A DNA stretch of 64,000 nt. Origin: an uncultured Gellertiella sp. (GTDB taxonomy: Bacteria > Pseudomonadota > Alphaproteobacteria > Rhizobiales > Rhizobiaceae). The notes under the pieces were generated by a model, which searched no databases, had not been told where the DNA came from, and saw nothing but the letters and a program-made list of their open reading frames with translations. Below, piece by piece: positions 9,513 through 49,730 of this stretch (the stretch's first letter is position 1; every line of letters starts with the position of its first letter). Made by a program: the position numbers and the translations under genes. Location: contig NZ_OY735139.1 in NCBI RefSeq assembly GCF_963457605.1, forward strand, positions 2,012,501-2,076,500, given 5' to 3'.

Positions 9513-10850
9513 ATGACCAGAGTTGCAGTTATCGGCGCAGGACCTTCAGGTCTTGCCATGCTTCGCGCCTTCCAGTCAGCAGCGCAAAAGGGGGCCGACA
9601 TTCCTGAAGTGGTCTGCTTCGAGAAGCAGTCGGACTGGGGCGGCCTGTGGAACTATACGTGGCGCACCGGCCTCGATGAATTCGGCGAGCCGGTGCATGG
9701 CAGCATGTACCGTTACCTCTGGTCGAACGGCCCGAAGGAAGGGCTGGAATTTGCCGACTACACATTCGAGGAGCATTTTGGCAAGCCGATTGCCTCCTTT
9801 CCGCCGCGCGCCGTGCTCTGGGACTATATCAAGGGACGGGTGGAAAAGGCCAATGTGCGCGGCTGGGTGCGTTTCAACTCGCCGATCCGCATGGTGCGCT
9901 ATGATGATGACACCGCAAAATTTACCGTAACCGCCCATGACCGCGTCAACGACCACATGTATGACGAGGAATTCGACTATGTCGTGGTCGCCTCCGGCCA
10001 TTTCTCGACACCACATGTCCCCTATTTCGAAGGGGCACACACCTTTGGCGGGCGCGTGCTGCATGCCCATGACTTCCGCGATGCGCTGGAATTCAAGGAC
10101 AAGGACGTGCTGATCGTCGGACGCAGCTATTCCGCCGAAGACATCGGTTCGCAATGCTGGAAATATGGGGCGAAATCGGTGACGACCTCCTACCGTTCGA
10201 AGCCGATGGGCTTCAAATGGCCGGAGCGCTTCGAGGAGCGGCCCCTGCTGACCCGGCTCGAGAACAAGACCGCCTATTTCAGGGACGGATCTTCAAAACA
10301 GGTCGATGCGCTGATCCTCTGCACCGGCTACCAGCACCATTTCCCCTTCCTGCCCGACGATCTCCGGCTGAAGACCGCCAACCGGCTGTGGAGTGACCAG
10401 CTCTACAAGGGCGTGATCTACGAGACCAATCCCAAGCTCTTCTACATCGGCATGCAGGACCAGTTCTATACGTTCAACATGTTCGACGTGCAGGCCTGGT
10501 ATACCCGCGACCTGATTCTCGGTCGCATCCAGATGCCGGGCATCGACGAATTGCAGGCCGATTTCGACCAATGGCGGGCCCGTGAGGAAACGCTGGAGAC
10601 GACGGAAGACATGATCTGGTTCCAGGGCGACTATGTCCAGCACCTGCTCGACCAGATCGACTATCCGCGCTTCGATATCGAGAACATCAACAAGACCTTC
10701 ATGGAATGGGAACATCACAAGGCCGAAGACATCATGGGCTTCCGCAACTATTCCCACCGCTCGCTGATGACAGGCACCATGTCGCCCAAGCATCATACGC
10801 CCTGGCTCGAAGAGCTTGATGATTCCATGGAAACCTATCTGCGCAATTGA
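9513..10850 (+). CDS. tmm: trimethylamine monooxygenase (flavin-containing monooxygenase, Tmm)
   Basis: From the ATG at 9513 (ribosome site GAGGGAG) the protein has 445 residues, the usual Tmm length. It shows the FAD-binding [11 protein letters not shown] (residues 7-17), the [14 protein letters not shown] stretch of bacterial FMOs, and the NADPH-binding GRSYSAED (about 194-201). Tmm oxidises trimethylamine to TMAO using NADPH and O2. It is the last gene of the dmm series and is followed by a strong terminator. A start 48 bases earlier is open but lacks a ribosome site. Sulfide or other amine oxidation is possible for FMOs, yet the neighbours favour trimethylamine. Confidence 0.9.
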
Positions 10851-43572: not shown

Positions 43573-43724
43573 GTTTGTCAGGGAAAACTCGCAAACGAAG
43601 TTTTGCGTTTGGAATCCGGTTTTCCCGCTCGAACTTGTTTGAGCGCTCAAACTCGTTTGAACGAAAAGACAAACGAAACCAATTTGCTCGGAGCCTGTCA
43701 GGTTCTATCTGAACCTGACAGGCT
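43573..43724. repeat. Palindromic MITE-like repeat, copy 1
   Basis: The unit begins GTTTGTCAGGGAAAAC and its first part ends GACAAAC at 43674, giving 7-bp terminal inverted repeats. A second part is a perfect hairpin, AGCCTGTCAGGTTC and its complement (43692-43705, 43711-43724). The same unit recurs at 45262-45397. This copy has an extra internal near-duplicate of about 20 bp. It codes for nothing. It lies directly before the ureC scrap. Confidence 0.75.
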
Positions 43725-43729
43725 GCAGG

Positions 43730-43819
43730 GCGGATCTGGTGGTGATGGGCGACAGCATTGCGGCGTTACCGGTGGGGAACCCCAATGCGTCGATGCCGAC
43801 GCCGATGGCGAGATTCTGA
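43730..43819 (+). pseudogene. ureC: ureC (urease alpha subunit) fossil fragment
   Basis: The frame GCG at 43730 to TGA at 43817 reads ADLVVMGDSIAALPVGNP followed by NASMPTPMARF. Urease alpha subunits carry a nearly identical stretch (a DLV..G..IA segment, then a G.PNASIPTP segment before the substrate-covering flap). With ureE, ureF and ureG next door, this is best read as the only surviving piece of ureC. The rest of the gene is gone. It begins within six bases of the repeat. Confidence 0.6.
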
Positions 43820-44014
43820 TCTGCGCCTGCTGACAGCCTGCCGATGAGCCGGCGCCATTTCCTGTTCTGGAGCAGTTTGCGATCTGGCTTGCCCCTTCTC
43901 CGGGTGGAATTTTTGCCTGGATCGAGGACTTCGCCGAAGGACATATCCTGATATAAGGTCGAGGCGAAGGCCGATGGAATTCGCGATAAATCAGTCCGCC
44001 CGAAGGATTGGCTG

Positions 44015-44063
44015 AAACCGGCGTTCCCCCGCGAACAATCTGTGTGCGGGGGAACCCCGGTTT
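44015..44063. repeat. Long hairpin upstream of ureE
   Basis: Arms 44015-44032 (AAACCGGCGTTCCCCCGC) and 44046-44063 are complementary except for one base, with a 13-nt loop. A smaller dyad, CCAATC A GATTGG, follows at about 44079-44092. No T run follows, so this may be an interspersed palindromic unit rather than a terminator. Confidence 0.55.
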
Positions 44064-44106
44064 GAGCCAACAGAATGATCCAATCAGATTGGAAACTGCT
44101 CTAGCC

Positions 44107-44673
44107 ATGCCCCAGAAAGCCATTACCTATCTCCGCGCCGCCAACGTGACCGGCACCCCGCAATTCAAGCTGACGCTCGATGCCCAGGACCGGCATATCC
44201 GCCGCAAGCGGATGACGCTGAATGACGGCACCGCCGTGCTGGTCGATCTGGAAAAGGCCGTGCAGCTTGCCGATGGCGATTGCCTGGTGCTGGAGGATGG
44301 CGCACTGGTCGAGATTCTCGCCGCCCATGAAAGCCTGCTTCAGATCACCGCCGCCTCGCCGCGGGCGCTGATGGCGCTTGCCTGGCATATCGGCAACCGC
44401 CATCTCGACGCGCAGATCGAGGAAAACCGAATCCTGATCCGGCCCGATCACGTGATCGCCCATATGCTGGAACATCAGGGGGCCGTGGTTGCCGAGATAC
44501 GTGAAAGCTTTACACCCGAGCCCGGGGCCTATCATCAGGAGATCGGTTTCGAGCATGATTATTCCCTGACCGAAAGCCATGGGCACCGGCATGAGCCCGG
44601 ACACCGGCACGCACCCGACAGGCCGCATCTCCACAACAACGATGCCGATGATGGGGGCGGGAATGACGATTGA
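44107..44673 (+). CDS. ureE: urease accessory protein UreE (nickel metallochaperone)
   Basis: At 188 residues this is a full-length UreE: LTLDAQDRHIRRKRMTLNDG (about residues 18-37), ALAWHIGNRHLDAQIEENRI (about 94-113), DHVIAHMLEHQGA, FTPEPGAYH, and a histidine-rich nickel-binding tail (HGHRHEPGHRHAPDRPHLH). UreE delivers nickel to the urease apoenzyme. It is the only intact gene of a urease locus in which ureC, ureF and ureG are fossils, so it is probably no longer used for urease unless another urease operon exists. ATG 44107 is the obvious start. Its stop overlaps the ureF start region. Confidence 0.85.
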   Translation: MPQKAITYLRAANVTGTPQFKLTLDAQDRHIRRKRMTLNDGTAVLVDLEKAVQLADGDCLVLEDGALVEILAAHESLLQITAASPRALMALAWHIGNRHLDAQIEENRILIRPDHVIAHMLEHQGAVVAEIRESFTPEPGAYHQEIGFEHDYSLTESHGHRHEPGHRHAPDRPHLHNNDADDGGGNDD

Positions 44674-45058
44674 GCCGGACCACCTGCTCCTGAATTTCCT
44701 GTCGCCCGCCTTTCCGACAGGCTCCTTTGCCTGATCGCACGGGCCGGAATGGGCGATTGCAGAAGGCGGGATCACCGATGCCGGGACCCTGTTCGACTGG
44801 ATCAGCGACCTCATCCGCCATGGTTCCGGCTGGAACGACGCCGTCCTGATCGCCAATTGCACCCCCGGGACCATGGTTGATATCAACCAGCTGGCGCTGG
44901 CCTCGTCGCCGGAGCGCTGGCAGGAAAGCGTGTCGCTTGGTGCCAGTTTTGCCGAAAGGGCGAGGGCAACGCTCGATGATCTCGGCGGTGCCTCCATCGG
45001 CAGCGACATCGCCGCGATGCGCCACGAATTCCAGCAACCGAGGATTTTTCCCAGATGA
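44663..45058 (+). pseudogene. ureF: ureF pseudogene (nonsense codon and internal deletion)
   Basis: One frame runs from ATG 44663 to TGA 45056-45058. It shows the UreF N-terminus (LLNFLSPAFPTGSFA, then SHGPEWAIAEGGITD) and C-terminus (GASIGSDIAAMRHEFQQPRI). A TGA at 44732-44734 replaces the tyrosine codon of the conserved FAYSHG. The total span of about 131 codons is some 90 short of a normal UreF, and the missing part lies between SLGASFAERARA and TLDDLGG. UreF, a GTPase-linked urease maturation factor, cannot be made from this. Confidence 0.8.
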
Positions 45059-45544
45059 TCCCCGACCGCCCTGCCGGCTCCAGCCATGGCCCTTGCGCAT
45101 CGGCATCGGTGGCCCTCCCGGCTCCGGCAAGACGACGCTGCCCGAGGAGCGGATCATCTGCGTCGAGACCTGCGGCTGCCCGCATACCGCGATCCGCGCG
45201 GATGCCTCGATCAATCTCGCCGCCACCTTTTCGCCCGATCTGGTCGATCTCTCGCTCTCGCGTTTGTCAGGGAAAACACGCAAACGAAGTTTTGTGTTTG
45301 GAATCCGGTTTTCCCGCGCAAACTTGTTTGCGCGAAAAGACAAACGAAAACAAAGGGAATTAGAGCCTGTCTGGTTCAGTATGAACCTGACAGGCTCTCT
45401 GTGATGGCGGATCTGGAGGTGATGGAGACAGACACGCAGAAAATGCGCGGCACCAGGCCCCATGTCTTCACCGACCTTCTCCGCCAGACAGGGCTTGATG
45501 AGGTGATTGCATTTCTGGAGAGGGAAGGCGGACTGAAGGGCTGA
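45055..45544 (+). pseudogene. ureG: ureG pseudogene (frameshifts, two deletions, repeat insertion)
   Basis: ATG 45055 overlaps the ureF stop as in intact operons. The P-loop IGIGGPPGSGKTTL appears in another frame (from about 45093), so there is an early frameshift. About 45 codons are missing before ERIICVETCGCPHTAIR, and about 20 more between INLAA and TFSPDL, where an NLAA-coding repeat would have flanked the lost piece. A MITE-like repeat then interrupts the gene at 45262-45397. The C-terminus resumes in a third frame (MADLEVMETDTQKMRG to GLDEVIAFLEREGG). The urease GTPase is lost. Confidence 0.82.
45262..45397. repeat. Palindromic MITE-like repeat, copy 2 (inside ureG)
   Basis: This copy aligns with 43573-43724 over almost its full length (GTTTGTCAGGGAAAAC, AAACGAAGTTTTG, GGAATCCGGTTTTCCC, AACTTGTTTG, GACAAACGAAA). 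The terminal dyad is CGTTTGTC with GACAAACG (ending 45346). The trailing hairpin GAGCCTGTC...GACAGGCTC is at 45363-45397. It disrupts the ureG reading frame. Confidence 0.78.
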
Positions 45545-46490: not shown

Positions 46491-46587
46491 CCTGCGGCGG
46501 CGACGAGAGGGGATGAAACTGGGGTGCCCGGACAACCGGACATTCCCGATTGGAAATGTAGTTCCATCAGGCATTCGCCGCGGCAGG
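46491..46587 (-). ncRNA. Y RNA-like noncoding RNA, copy C
   Basis: On the minus strand the terminal stem pairs 46576-46587 with 46491-46502 (12 bp, one mismatch). After a conserved internal loop, a second stem pairs 46560-46568 with 46512-46520 (9 bp, one G-U). The 5' arm reads GGCGAATGCC and then GGAACTAC; the 3' arm reads GTTTCATC and then CTCGTCGCC. Both arm motifs are shared with the two other copies upstream. The loop has two small hairpins. It is the third RNA downstream of the Ro60 gene on the same strand. This is a structural inference, not a database match. Confidence 0.6.
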
Positions 46588-46643
46588 ACATCGTGGAGCC
46601 CAGGACCGGCAAAGGACCGATCCGGAGCCGTGACATCAAGAAT

Positions 46644-46749
46644 CATGGCGACGAGGGGTCAAAGAAACCTTTCTCAACAGGAAGGCAGGTGCATGACCTG
46701 CCGGATCAGACCTGATTGAGACCGTGTAGTTCCTTTTGCATTCGCCATG
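46644..46749 (-). ncRNA. Y RNA-like noncoding RNA, copy B
   Basis: The terminal stem CATGGCG/CGCCATG pairs 46743-46749 with 46644-46650 (7 bp, perfect). The inner stem AAAGGAAC with GTTTCTTT pairs 46729-46736 with 46661-46668 (8 bp, one G-U). The arm motifs GGCGAATGC, GGAACTAC, GTTTC and CTCGTCGCC recur at the same places as in copies A and C. The loop holds GGCAGGT-CATGC-ACCTGCC, a perfect 7-bp hairpin, and a CTCAA/TTGAG pairing. Confidence 0.62.
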
Positions 46750-46757
46750 CCGTCTGT

Positions 46758-46886
46758 TCGTGACGACGAAAGTGGTGAAACGTCCCTGCTCTGTTTGGAG
46801 CTTCAGATTGCCAACAGGGCAATCCGGCGGGATTCGAACCCGCGACCATGGGATCCGGCTGTAGTTTCATCCGGCATTCGTCACGA
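46758..46886 (-). ncRNA. Y RNA-like noncoding RNA, copy A, with tRNA-like (YrlA-type) domain
   Basis: Reading the minus strand, the terminal stem TCGTGACG/CGTCACGA pairs 46879-46886 with 46758-46765 (8 bp, perfect). TGAAAC/GTTTCA pairs 46864-46869 with 46776-46781, plus GG/CC beyond a bulge. The enclosed part holds a classical T-arm (5-bp stem 46827-46831 with 46839-46843, loop TTCGAAT), then a 7-bp stem GATTGCC/GGCAATC closed by CTGTT, then a 4-bp GCTC/GAGC hairpin. It starts about 80 bp after the Ro60 stop on the same strand. Bacterial Y RNAs next to rsr genes are known to carry tRNA-like domains with T-loops. Confidence 0.72.
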
Positions 46887-46966
46887 TCCCGCACCGCTTT
46901 CGGCAGCGCGAAACTGAAAGTCATCTCGCTGGAGCATGTCAGGGCCATAGGTTTCCCTTACAAACT

Positions 46967-48532
46967 CTAAAGTGGCATCGCCTCGATCATTTTCACCCAG
47001 GCATCGCTGCCGTTGCGATTGGCCGCAAAATCCGCGATGATCTCGTAGACGGAATCCGAGAAGCCACCGATATTCAATATATCCTCCCGCGTCTGTGCCT
47101 GCGAGGTTTCGCCCGGCTGGATGTCGAGACAGACCAGCCGCGCCTGCGGATTGATCCGCTTGATTCGCGACCATTGGACCAGAACCGGCGTCGGCTGCCC
47201 CGGTGGCGCGGCGCCGACCCAGGATTGGTTGTCCGAAATGATCACCACCAGATCGACCTTCGCCCGCTCATCGGCAAGCAGCTTCAGCGGTGCCGCACAA
47301 TTTGTGCCGCCACCACCTACGGCTGCCAGCCGCTCCGCATTGGTCATCACCGAATCCTGCCTCCGAACGGTTACGTCCACCACCGCCCGCTCGAATGGCA
47401 GGATGCGCGCACCGGGGTTGCGCTGAAGGAACGAGGCCGACATCAGCGCGGCGACATCGATGCAGCGCACCGCAGTTGTGGCACCGGGCCGGAAGCCCGT
47501 TACCGGCAGACGCATGGAGCCCGAGACATCCGGGCAGAGTACGATAGTGCCGGCAACAGTCGGAATATTGGCAATCGCCCGTTCCATGGCCTCTTCCAGC
47601 GCCTCGCAGAGGACATTCGGCACCCGGCCCTCCACCATCTTCCACGCCATCATCAGTTGGTAGGGGAAGACCTTGCCCGACCTGATGTCTGCGGGCGATG
47701 CCAGCCTGTCGGCAAGCGTCGCTGTCAGTGCCTCATCCTTGAAGACACCATGCCGTTCAAAGGTGACGAGGTTCTGGCGCAGAATCTGGAAACTCGCTGT
47801 CCGGGCAATCGCCGCCCAATGCGAGGGTTCAAGCGGCAAGGACGTCAGCAACTGGAACGGCACATCAGGAGCGTCACCCTGCGGGTCGCGGCGAAAGGCT
47901 TCAAGCGCCTTCACCACCTCGGGCAGGGCCGCATGGTCATGGGGCTTGCCGACGATCCAGGCATAAAGCGCCCGCCTTTCCCCGGAATTCGGCTTCGGAT
48001 GTACCATGCGGATGACATCGGCAAGCGATGGCTGGTTGCCGACCGAGGCGCGCAGGATCTGCCCGACGCTGGCCTGTTCCAGCCAGGCCTGCACCAGCTT
48101 TTTCGGTCGCGTGCCGAGCGATTTGCGACCCGTCGCACCCGAGCGCATCACATGGACAAAGCCGCGCAGCATCTTGCCGCTTTTCACCACGCGCGGGAAA
48201 GCACGGGCAAAGATCTCGCTCTCAAGGCCGGAAAGGATTGCCAGCAGGACGACGGGCATATCCTTCATATGACCCTTTTCGGCGGCATGGATGGCAAGCC
48301 GGGCAAGAAAGTCCGGTTCCACCTCAAGGGCAAGTGCCTTCACCGCCTCAAGCTGCGCCGCGCCATCGGCATAATAGGTGCCGTTGAATGTGCCGGTAAC
48401 GGCATATTGCGCCAATGCTTCCCTGGGCGTCAGCCGATAGGCCGGTGCGCCCGCTCTGTTGCGGACATTTGCGCCGGGCAAAAGCTTGCCGAAATAGGTC
48501 CTGAAAATCGCTGTGTTCACCATGAGGAACAT
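46967..48532 (-). CDS. rsr: Ro60 orthologue (TROVE domain plus vWA domain), Rsr
   Basis: The 521-residue protein has an N-terminal HEAT-like TROVE domain (about residues 15-330; LTPREALAQYAVTGTFNGTY, AIHAAEKGHMKDMPVVLLAI, RALYAWIVGKPHD). A C-terminal von Willebrand A domain follows (about 345-510) with an intact MIDAS (CPDVSGSM, then GGGGTNCAAPL, and VIISDNQSW). Ro60 forms a ring that binds Y RNA on its surface and misfolded RNA ends in its centre. With Y RNA it can link to PNPase for RNA decay or sense RNA damage. Three Y RNA-like sequences follow it. No rtcB or rtcA is in the window. An alternative start is at 48523. Confidence 0.88.
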   Translation of the reverse strand: MFLMVNTAIFRTYFGKLLPGANVRNRAGAPAYRLTPREALAQYAVTGTFNGTYYADGAAQLEAVKALALEVEPDFLARLAIHAAEKGHMKDMPVVLLAILSGLESEIFARAFPRVVKSGKMLRGFVHVMRSGATGRKSLGTRPKKLVQAWLEQASVGQILRASVGNQPSLADVIRMVHPKPNSGERRALYAWIVGKPHDHAALPEVVKALEAFRRDPQGDAPDVPFQLLTSLPLEPSHWAAIARTASFQILRQNLVTFERHGVFKDEALTATLADRLASPADIRSGKVFPYQLMMAWKMVEGRVPNVLCEALEEAMERAIANIPTVAGTIVLCPDVSGSMRLPVTGFRPGATTAVRCIDVAALMSASFLQRNPGARILPFERAVVDVTVRRQDSVMTNAERLAAVGGGGTNCAAPLKLLADERAKVDLVVIISDNQSWVGAAPPGQPTPVLVQWSRIKRINPQARLVCLDIQPGETSQAQTREDILNIGGFSDSVYEIIADFAANRNGSDAWVKMIEAMPL

Positions 48533-48738: not shown

Positions 48739-49110
48739 TCATTTTGACCGGATCCAGCCCGCCAGACCCGCTTCCGCCCGCTCCAGCGCGGCATGGTTGA
48801 GAAGCTTGCGCAACCGTGCGACGGTGACCGCGCGGCTGTGCGGCTGTGCGGATTGAAGCGGTCCTCCGCCCCACCACCGCGTTCGGGCATCGGGCATCGG
48901 GCATCGGGCATCGGGCATCGGGCAATCGTCCGGTCAGTGAGGCCAAGTGCAATATCAATCAGAACTTCATATTCGCTGTCGGCAAAGCCACGGGGATAGC
49001 TGAAGCGGCGCTGCTGGAGTCCCCGCACCACCCTGTCGATCACGCATTGGCCCTCGACGAAGATCGACCGCAAGGCCAGCCGCAACCGGCGGTCGGAGGC
49101 GGAAAAGTCC
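48739..49110 (-). pseudogene. LuxR-type helix-turn-helix regulator remnant
   Basis: On the minus strand a frame reads [17 protein letters not shown] and then DSEYEVLIDIALGLTDRTIA, which has the pattern of a LuxR helix-turn-helix (E.EVL..IA.GL.dr.IA). After a heptanucleotide repeat another frame reads AVTVARLRKLLNHAALERAE up to a stop at 48739, resembling the second half (TV..hLR.l...l...RaEA). No start is visible. The match is weak and by eye only. Confidence 0.35.
48884..48924. repeat. Heptanucleotide tandem repeat (CGGGCAT, nearly six copies)
   Basis: Five exact copies of CGGGCAT and a sixth incomplete one lie head to tail from 48884. Seven is not a multiple of three, so each unit gained or lost would shift the frame. 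It sits at the break in the LuxR-type remnant. Confidence 0.85.
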
Positions 49111-49588
49111 AGCTGTTCCCGCACCGGACGGCGCTCGGCAATGTCATGGAAGGGCTGGTGACGGTGCTGAAATGGGACCGGGCGCGCGCACGCGCCATGG
49201 AATTGCTCGACGAGGTCGGCATGGCCCACAAGGCCGGGGCCTGGCCCGCAACGCTTTCCGGCGGCCAGCAGCAGCGGGTGGCGATTGCCCGGGCGCTGCC
49301 CCCCTCGCCCCGGGTGCTGCTCTGCGACGAGCCGACCCCGGCGCTCGATCCGGAACTTGCCGAGGAAGTGGTGGAGGTATGGAGCAGGCTTGCGGGAGAA
49401 GGCACGACGATGATCATCGCCACCATGACCTCCGGCTCGCCCCACGCGTAGCCGACACCGTAATCTTTCTCGACAGCGGCAGCATTGTTGAAAGTGGCGC
49501 AGAAAAACAGATCTTTACCGCGCCCGTGCAAGACCGTACCCGCCGGTTCATCGCCTCCCTGAGCGCCACGGTCGATTGCGACATTTGA
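49110..49588 (+). pseudogene. amino-acid ABC transporter ATP-binding protein fossil
   Basis: The frame from about 49110 ([15 protein letters not shown]) carries the ABC signature [15 protein letters not shown] and Walker [19 protein letters not shown]. The sequence upstream lacks the Walker A half. One base is missing near 49424, turning the conserved ATHDLRLA into another frame, after which [17 protein letters not shown] continues to a stop at 49588. Several odd residues (PTPALD for PTSALD) support decay. The gene is dead; it resembles polar amino-acid importer ATPases. Confidence 0.75.
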
Positions 49589-49640: not shown

Positions 49641-49730
49641 TGGCGGAGAAGGAGGGATTTGAACCCCCGATACCCTTGCGGGTATGCCGCATTTCGAGTG
49701 CGGTGCATTCAACCTCTCTGCCACTTCTCC
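49641..49730 (-). tRNA. tRNA-Ser (anticodon CGA)
   Basis: The minus strand folds as a class II tRNA: acceptor GGAGAAG with CTTCTCC, anticodon stem CCGCA/TGCGG with loop CTCGAAA (anticodon CGA, codon UCG), a long variable arm ATACCC/GGGTAT and a T-arm with loop TTCAAAT. The CCA end is encoded (49641-49643). It lies 52 bp beyond an ABC ATPase fossil, and tRNA-Ser genes are common integration sites. Confidence 0.92.

Follow-up and report, generated by a model that had tools for sequence, protein, structure and literature searches.

A predicted three-member Y RNA array behind the Ro60 gene of an uncultured Gellertiella species, and tRNA-like modules in the arrays of its relatives

Bacterial Y RNAs, their adjacency to the Ro60 gene (rsr) and the permuted tRNA layout of YrlA are already known. 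The second Y RNA of Salmonella, YrlB, is not known to have a tRNA domain. Chen (2014) reportedly found likely Y RNAs near Ro60 in over 250 species, with at least one per species carrying a tRNA-like domain; if so, several Y RNAs per genome were already known, and the locus described here would be an extreme case. According to two papers, Rsr of other bacteria binds the lower stem of the Y RNA, the Y RNA gates the Rsr ring and tethers PNPase, and DusA and TruB modify YrlA (PMC4726728, PMC8394870). Further sources describe the bacterial Y RNA as circularly permuted relative to tRNA (PMC11472068), give the Salmonella operon order as rsr-yrlBA-rtcBA (PMC7790460, PMC9879122), and state that Y RNA function had been studied only in Deinococcus (PMC7790460). 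A literature search, whose reach stopped short of the main primary papers on bacterial Y RNAs, returned nothing on rhizobial Y RNAs or on arrays of the present kind, and within the same reach a permuted tRNA together with Y RNA or Ro60 was not found; one paper on permuted noncoding RNAs did not name Y RNA.

The window analysed here is a 64,000-nt stretch of contig NZ_OY735139.1 of an uncultured Gellertiella sp. (assembly GCF_963457605.1). The genome carries a single rsr copy, and three units were located approximately 80 to 475 nt beyond its stop codon on the rsr strand (Table 1). A sequence-only reading had placed three segments with common arm motifs on this strand, and they were located as claimed, with the array beginning approximately 80 nt past the rsr stop. 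Its arm motifs, and its observation that the three closing stems differ in sequence yet pair, were also reproduced, the stem of copy 3 containing one mismatch. Taken in the broad sense of an RNA with an Rsr-type stem linked to rsr, the units agree with bacterial Y RNAs both in their adjacency to rsr and in the conserved closing stem with its bulge motif.

Table 1. Positions of the features discussed, numbered from the first nucleotide of the window
Feature	Coordinates	Strand	Basis or remark
Y RNA copy 1 (YrlA-like, type A; ortholog of the first unit in relatives, diverged)	46756-46888	minus	R2, R1, Rfam YrlA below cut-off, full-length alignment with 26 relatives
T-arm of copy 1, T-loop intact (GCGGG TTCGAAT CCCGC)	46827-46843	minus	fold, alignment
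Acceptor-like hairpin of copy 1, 9 bp, no CCA	46804-46826	minus	fold
D-stem of copy 1, loop shortened, without A14 and G18-G19	46788-46801	minus	alignment, fold
Y RNA copy 2	46641-46752	minus	R1, R2, fold; Rfam YrlA below cut-off
Y RNA copy 3	46493-46585	minus	R1, R2, fold
rsr, Ro60 ortholog, 521 aa, intact	46967-48532	minus	PF25045 vWA_Ro60, E 1.6e-19
ABC ATPase fragment beside rsr	48849-49451		partial PF00005
tRNA-Ser (CGA) gene	49641-49730		1.1 kb upstream of rsr
Intact UreE gene and the stretch behind it	44008-45260		

Two covariance models were built from relatives, R1 from 26 type D rows (a unit type described below) and R2 from 26 rows of the relatives' first unit, and neither contained a row from the window. 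The covariance-model check that had been proposed, run with these rows, was positive, since both models matched all three copies in the window: copy 1 with 39.2 bits (E 2.9e-9) by R1 and 99.3 bits (E 3.3e-26) by R2, copy 2 with 34.1 bits (E 8.1e-8) and 33.2 bits (E 1.9e-7), and copy 3 with 30.5 bits (E 8.3e-7) and 37.5 bits (E 1.2e-8). Beyond the three copies, nothing convincing was seen in the window, where the next matches had E values of 0.31 (R1) and 0.11 (R2). Searching the 4.17-Mb genome with R2 produced 14 matches at E ≤ 1, headed by copy 1 (E 2.2e-24), copy 3 (E 7.7e-7) and copy 2 (E 1.2e-5). The 11 other matches started at E 0.0019, and eight of them were 36-nt partial matches; the best was such a partial match on a tRNA-Asn gene. 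Eight of these 11 places were examined, and seven coincided with tRNA genes (Asn, Met, Lys or Arg) while the eighth did not. The 5' arm pattern GRCGAATGC-N(3-10)-RAACTACA occurred three times in the 4.17-Mb genome, always in the array, and the reversed control did not occur at all. Fold stability against shuffles gave z values of -3.88, -3.19 and -3.90 for copies 1, 2 and 3, respectively. At the curated Rfam cut-offs no Y RNA was reported at the locus; the YrlA family (RF02553, cut-off 69 bits) matched copy 1 with 50.5 bits (E 2.5e-10) and copy 2 with 26.4 bits (E 0.0022), and did not match copy 3. Among other YrlA-like matches in the genome, L011, L013 and L014 lie on tRNA genes called by ARAGORN; a further one, L015, has no ARAGORN-called tRNA gene. 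The sequence-only interpretation of a Y RNA array of three is consistent with the linkage to rsr, the common Rsr-stem motifs, the differing paired stems and the independent models from relatives.

Conservation of the paired stems in related genomes, on which that interpretation had been staked, could be seen in copy 1, which aligned end to end with the type A units of 26 relatives and formed 34 of their 36 consensus pairs. Seven of the 36 pairs differ from the commonest pair of the relatives; five of these still pair, four of them through a two-sided change, and the two broken pairs are both in the helix before the T-arm. Three pairs of the acceptor-like hairpin are changed on both sides compared to the relatives. 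Measured against the tRNA domain of YrlA, copy 1 has the T-arm, the acceptor-like hairpin and the D-stem and has lost the D-loop G18-G19, A14 and U8; relative to the relatives, CCA is also gone and the T-loop is kept. The rule defining type A itself demanded U8, A14 and GG; in loci L016-L059, each of the 42 first units lying no more than 130 nt from rsr satisfied this rule, which thus excluded none of them. Judging from the alignment, the stems of copy 1 look to be under selection while the elbow contacts are gone.

Copy 2 consists of an Rsr-type stem (CATGGCGA/TCGCCATG) and an inner stem, and its closing stem is as in the second unit of the relatives. Where the relatives have a T-arm, it has a plain 7-bp hairpin with the loop CATGC (46684-46702), which also fits a terminator-like pattern. 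Copy 3 has a long closing stem, an inner stem and one hairpin; its closing and inner stems are as in type C, and neither T-loop nor D-loop is present. Copies 2 and 3 contain no tRNA-like module. From their position and outer stem, we infer that copies 2 and 3 are probably orthologs of the relatives' units. All three copies are Y RNA-like, as had been proposed, but they differ in kind: copy 1 is a YrlA ortholog that has diverged, and copies 2 and 3 lack the T-loop, the D-arm and the acceptor module.

A scan of named genomes confirmed at least 497 relatives, of which the best 80 were analysed as loci L016-L095; the results therefore apply to near relatives. In 462,880 nt downstream of rsr, a strict unit finder detected 191 units on the rsr strand compared to 2 on the opposite one, and the two control searches over 436,562 nt upstream of rsr gave 0 and 1. 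With a loose finder, 289 units were detected downstream on the rsr strand compared to 8, 7 and 7 in the controls. Within 1.8 kb, the loose finder counted no unit in 3 of the 80 loci (L071 and L072, which are cut off by contig ends, and L095), one unit in 4 loci, two in 7, three in 26, four in 20, five in 16 and six in 4; two coding-like units, L073 at 1713 and L061 at 792, were kept in the finder counts. Across the window and the 80 loci together, model R1 produced 346 matches with E ≤ 0.01, and among the 300 matches listed all those in the loci were on the rsr strand. By R1, L062 has seven units and L049 has six, with a seventh from the finder; the Y RNA model matches of L095 are upstream of rsr, not downstream. 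The sequence-only reading of an array of three was supported, but such an array is nothing out of the ordinary among these near relatives, where 26 of the 80 loci have three units by the loose finder and 40 have four to six.

A total of 280 units were sorted by rule into 106 of type A (T-arm, D-hairpin), 43 of type C, 26 of type D, 40 with a T-arm only, 17 of type E, 23 short units and 25 others; later R1 matches raise the type D count above 26. The rules required paired T-arms and D-stems (types A and D), U8, A14 and the D-loop GG (type A) and a paired anticodon-like stem (type D). The pairing of these helices, like the occurrence of these bases, is therefore partly built in. Helices outside the sorting rules were not required, except for most of the closing stem, which the finder demanded. 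Type E closes 16 arrays (L016-L025, L028-L030, L038, L043 and L044) and has a conserved hairpin without tRNA-like features (GGGCCGCATCGCGCC...); a 17th unit with this label, in L092, looks different.

Type A shows the YrlA layout of T-arm, acceptor and D-arm. The Rfam YrlA model reported 11 units at its cut-off in 9 of 10 loci, all typed A; at E ≤ 0.01, five of these loci yielded one type D unit (L028, 31.7 bits, below the cut-off) and no other type D unit. Across 26 aligned type A rows, two-sided change affects 13 of 36 pairs, including 5 of the 7 pairs of the acceptor stem, a helix outside the rules, and 0 of 500 shuffles reached any of five measures. As in tRNA, an N-CCA follows the 3' strand of the acceptor in 52 of 105 parsed units (chance approximately 1 in 64, the rows not being independent); among the aligned rows it was present in 22 of 26. 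A short hairpin of three pairs occupies the place expected for an anticodon arm; its strands read AGA/TCT in 12 rows and AGG/CCT in another 12, and its loop is 7 nt long in 23 of these 24. This mini anticodon arm is the weaker claim, because RNAalifold prefers a competing helix and shuffles match it on two of the five measures (386 and 500 of the 500 shuffles do so). As judged from the aligned rows, the N-CCA and the putative mini anticodon arm go beyond the Rfam YrlA consensus. The first unit of L033, L052, L058, L059 and L065 contains inserts of approximately 40-100 nt in the linker from CCA to the 5' acceptor strand.

Type D units begin with GGTA-GAGC and finish with GTAGCTC-AG, which we take to be tRNA positions 18-25 placed first and 7-15 placed last. 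The stretch between these ends contains an anticodon-like hairpin, the sequence AGGTC, a T-arm and an acceptor-like hairpin that is capped. Across 26 rows, two-sided change was seen at 24 of 37 pairs; 96.3% of the cells pair compared to 35-52% when slid, and 0 of 500 shuffles reached any of the measures. In helices outside the rules, two-sided change affected 5 of the 8 inner-stem pairs and 4 of the 5 pairs in the acceptor-like hairpin. The layout was also assessed without a pairing rule, by taking units with the motif GTRG(Y)(K)CAR near the 3' end (108 of 280) and seeking its four-base complement within 18 nt after ACTACA. The complement was present in 30 of the 32 motif units that are not type A and in none of the 76 that are. 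In units without the motif, GAGC stands at that place in 3 of 152; GCGC alone is uninformative, being there in 25 of 152. The D-stem halves could be read by pattern in 56 of 70 type D units (GCTC/GAGC in 42, GCGC/GCGC in 12, and two others), and all of them pair; CCA follows the acceptor strand in 2 of the 56. Among the R1 matches listed, 69 had at least 76 bits, in 52 of the 80 loci, and the next match had 62.5 bits; two Verrucomicrobia records and one Scleromatobacter, presumably of the Betaproteobacteria, belong to this higher-scoring group of 69. No type D unit was found in the window.

None of 270 unrotated units was called a tRNA by ARAGORN. After rotation at the acceptor linker, it called 63 of the 91 type A units that could be parsed and 14 of the 25 of type D, compared to 0 of 910 and 0 of 500 dinucleotide shuffles. 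Scanning all cuts and trims over the 231 units that were long enough gave 115 tRNA calls, and 0 of 231 for shuffles; by type, these were 85 of 99 for A, 16 of 25 for D, 8 of 34 for units with only a T-arm, 6 of 19 for others, 0 of 38 for C and 0 of 14 for E. Types C and E are therefore not permuted tRNAs by this test. In the same scan, 0 of 2 window copies were called, copy 3 being too short to enter. Among 45 type D model matches counted as outside the training rows (one overlaps a training row, and four loci were left out), 37 were called after rotation and 0 of 45 mononucleotide shuffles were. About half of the testable modules in the relatives are circularly permuted tRNAs. By eye, we take the last units of L045, L050, L051, L054, L058 and L069 and the second units of L049 and L059 to have a tRNA-Leu-like D-loop cut (GGTGGCGGAA ... 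GGTARACGC) or a Ser-like D-arm. Such Leu-like and Ser-like modules suggest repeated capture of different tRNAs.

The arrays of most relatives lie in the order rtcR / rsr - Y array - rtcB. By tblastn, 76 of the 80 loci have an oppositely oriented RtcR approximately 170-340 bp upstream of rsr, and 66 have RtcB after the array; the families were confirmed for L016 and L045. In L016 a gene for a DUF6946 protein (10014-10766) stands directly behind rtcB. The window genome has neither RtcR nor RtcB, and the profiles PF01139 and PF06956 gave 0 matches in it, while the controls matched in 9 and 1 of 14 named genomes. In the Rsr tree, the window protein groups with 19 relatives, from Rhizobium, Shinella, Pararhizobium and further Rhizobiales, in a 20-row set with support 99/96. 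Upstream RtcR and downstream RtcB are both present in 18 of these relatives; in the remaining one, L071, RtcR is present and the sequence stops behind rsr. Because the surrounding rows of the tree have both genes, their absence from the window genome looks like a loss. The idea that RtcB loss drove the loss of tRNA mimicry found no support, since nine loci without nearby RtcB all have type A units: L066, with neither RtcB nor RtcR within 6 kb, and L046, L048, L081, L082, L085, L086, L088 and L091, with no RtcB within 6 kb downstream, absence in all nine referring to the flank and not to the whole genome.

Within the family sample rsr is sporadic, present in 9 of 199 genomes (window genome counted), and in the genus it is present in 1 of 5, the window genome. 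Compared with the other 79 aligned rows, window Rsr keeps 88 of 90 columns that are invariant there; it is changed at 62 of 361 columns that are invariant in 18 rows of its own tree set. Its end branch is 0.51, compared to 0.002-0.082 for 18 of the other 19 rows of the set and 0.28 for the truncated row L071, and owing to this length its exact place in the tree is unsure. L063, from a contig titled Mycobacterium sp., has an Rsr nearly identical to that of Inquilinus, and the title may be wrong.

The genes on both sides of the rsr locus appear broken. The ABC ATPase fragment has a GCATCGG tandem repeat near its start, and the reading frames after UreE presumably represent broken urease accessory genes, which we take to be UreF and UreG. 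An intergenic repeat pair of approximately 180 bp, 76% identical, was seen at 43573-43748 and 45262-45425. At the array, neither a sigma-70-like promoter nor, behind it, a terminator-like site was found. A strict sigma-54 pattern was present upstream of rsr in 6 of the 80 loci and missing in the window; the pattern is too insensitive to inform.

Four other explanations were weighed against these data. The locus may be a decaying remnant of an RNA-repair operon, in which rsr and the array have drifted without selection since the loss of rtcR and rtcB. RtcR and RtcB are indeed missing, the Rsr end branch is long with many set-invariant columns changed, copy 1 has lost its tRNA core and CCA, apparently broken genes flank the locus on both sides, and four of the five genomes of the genus have no rsr. 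This reading is a serious rival but an unlikely one, given the intact 521-aa frame and the universally invariant Rsr columns that are kept, and given closing stems that are paired in all three copies, with four two-sided compensations in copy 1. Structures that arose by chance as inverted repeats, or tRNA remnants or an attachment site, are scarcely credible. The tRNA-Ser gene upstream of rsr and the T-arm of copy 1 would suit them, and the strand and upstream controls in relatives, the genome-wide arm pattern and the R1 and R2 matches speak against them; the attachment-site idea was dropped, as the end of the tRNA-Ser gene has no repeat longer than 15 nt anywhere in the window.

A main role of the RNAs as tRNA decoys, or as competitors for enzymes that process or cut tRNA, in line with the proposal for Salmonella YrlA, is very improbable. 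That competitor idea is stated in PMC7790460, and many of the relatives' modules were called tRNA after rotation; neither of the two testable window copies was, copies 2 and 3 have no T-loop, and copy 1 has no contacts between D-loop and T-loop. Similarly improbable is a structured 3' untranslated region that stabilises the rsr mRNA instead of separate RNAs. Such a region could be accommodated by an array immediately behind rsr, on the same strand and with no separate promoter seen, but every unit forms a closed structure and has an Rsr-type stem of its own, the number and order of units vary in the relatives, and homologous RNAs elsewhere are small RNAs bound by Rsr (PMC4726728).

We consider it probable that rsr and the three Y RNA genes encode a small Ro RNP set, in a reduced and diverged array that most likely works without full tRNA mimicry, because the repair genes and most of the mimicry have been lost while the stems and Rsr are maintained. 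At the level of sequence, all three RNAs keep the motif and the paired stem of the known binding between bacterial Y RNA and Rsr, and differ in the modules beyond the stem. The Y RNAs may be read through from rsr or processed out of its transcript. Each would dock on the outside of the Rsr ring and gate it, and could show its own module to a partner, for example PNPase; one ring protein would thereby be fitted with interchangeable RNA adaptors. The three window RNAs would offer Rsr different modules, none of which mimics a tRNA in full. The genes for PNPase and TruB are present in the window genome. Extending PNPase tethering to copies 2 and 3 is a guess, because it was shown for RNAs with other modules. 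The window array is probably a reduced, diverged descendant: RtcR and RtcB are missing, copy 1 has lost its elbow contacts and its CCA, copies 2 and 3 do not resemble tRNA, and Rsr and the Rsr-binding stems are kept.

For the arrays in general, we incline to the reading that they are adaptor cassettes, in which whole tRNAs have been captured on an Rsr-docking stem by at least two permutations, types A and D. The type A cut would lie between the D-arm and the anticodon arm, with a mini anticodon arm plus a discriminator-CCA encoded at the junction; the type D cut would fall within the D-loop, between positions 15 and 18. In the window lineage, freed from RtcR and RtcB, the modules would no longer be tRNA mimics while docking was kept. 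One ring protein with up to seven RNAs carrying different modules makes the adaptor idea directly testable by keeping the stem constant and swapping the module. A second layout of tRNA permutation would mean that tRNA mimicry in Y RNAs is not bound to one architecture. The window can serve as a contrast case, where Rsr and the docking stems were kept after the loss of RtcB, RtcR and most of the mimicry, which lets the functions of mimicry and of docking be separated.

Comparison with described systems places the locus as follows. Like YrlA (RF02553), the window copies are linked to rsr and have the closing-stem motif and an inner stem in common with it, and copy 1 aligns over the whole length, including T-arm, acceptor hairpin and D-stem; unlike YrlA, no window copy reaches 69 bits, copy 1 is without the D-loop signature and copies 2 and 3 are without a tRNA-like domain. 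Salmonella YrlB and other Y RNAs without a tRNA domain resemble them as further Y RNAs of an rsr operon, by description rather than by sequence comparison. The RNA-repair operon with RtcR and RtcB has the same succession of rsr and Y RNAs, and the window genome differs in having neither RtcR nor RtcB. RYPER, the Rsr-Y RNA-PNPase complex of Deinococcus, has its putative counterparts here in Rsr, Y RNAs and a PNPase gene. The permuted tRNA-like fold of a bacterial Y RNA (PDB 6CU1) has the layout of type A in the relatives, whereas type D, absent from the window, is cut in the D-loop instead and was found in at least 52 of the 80 relatives' loci.
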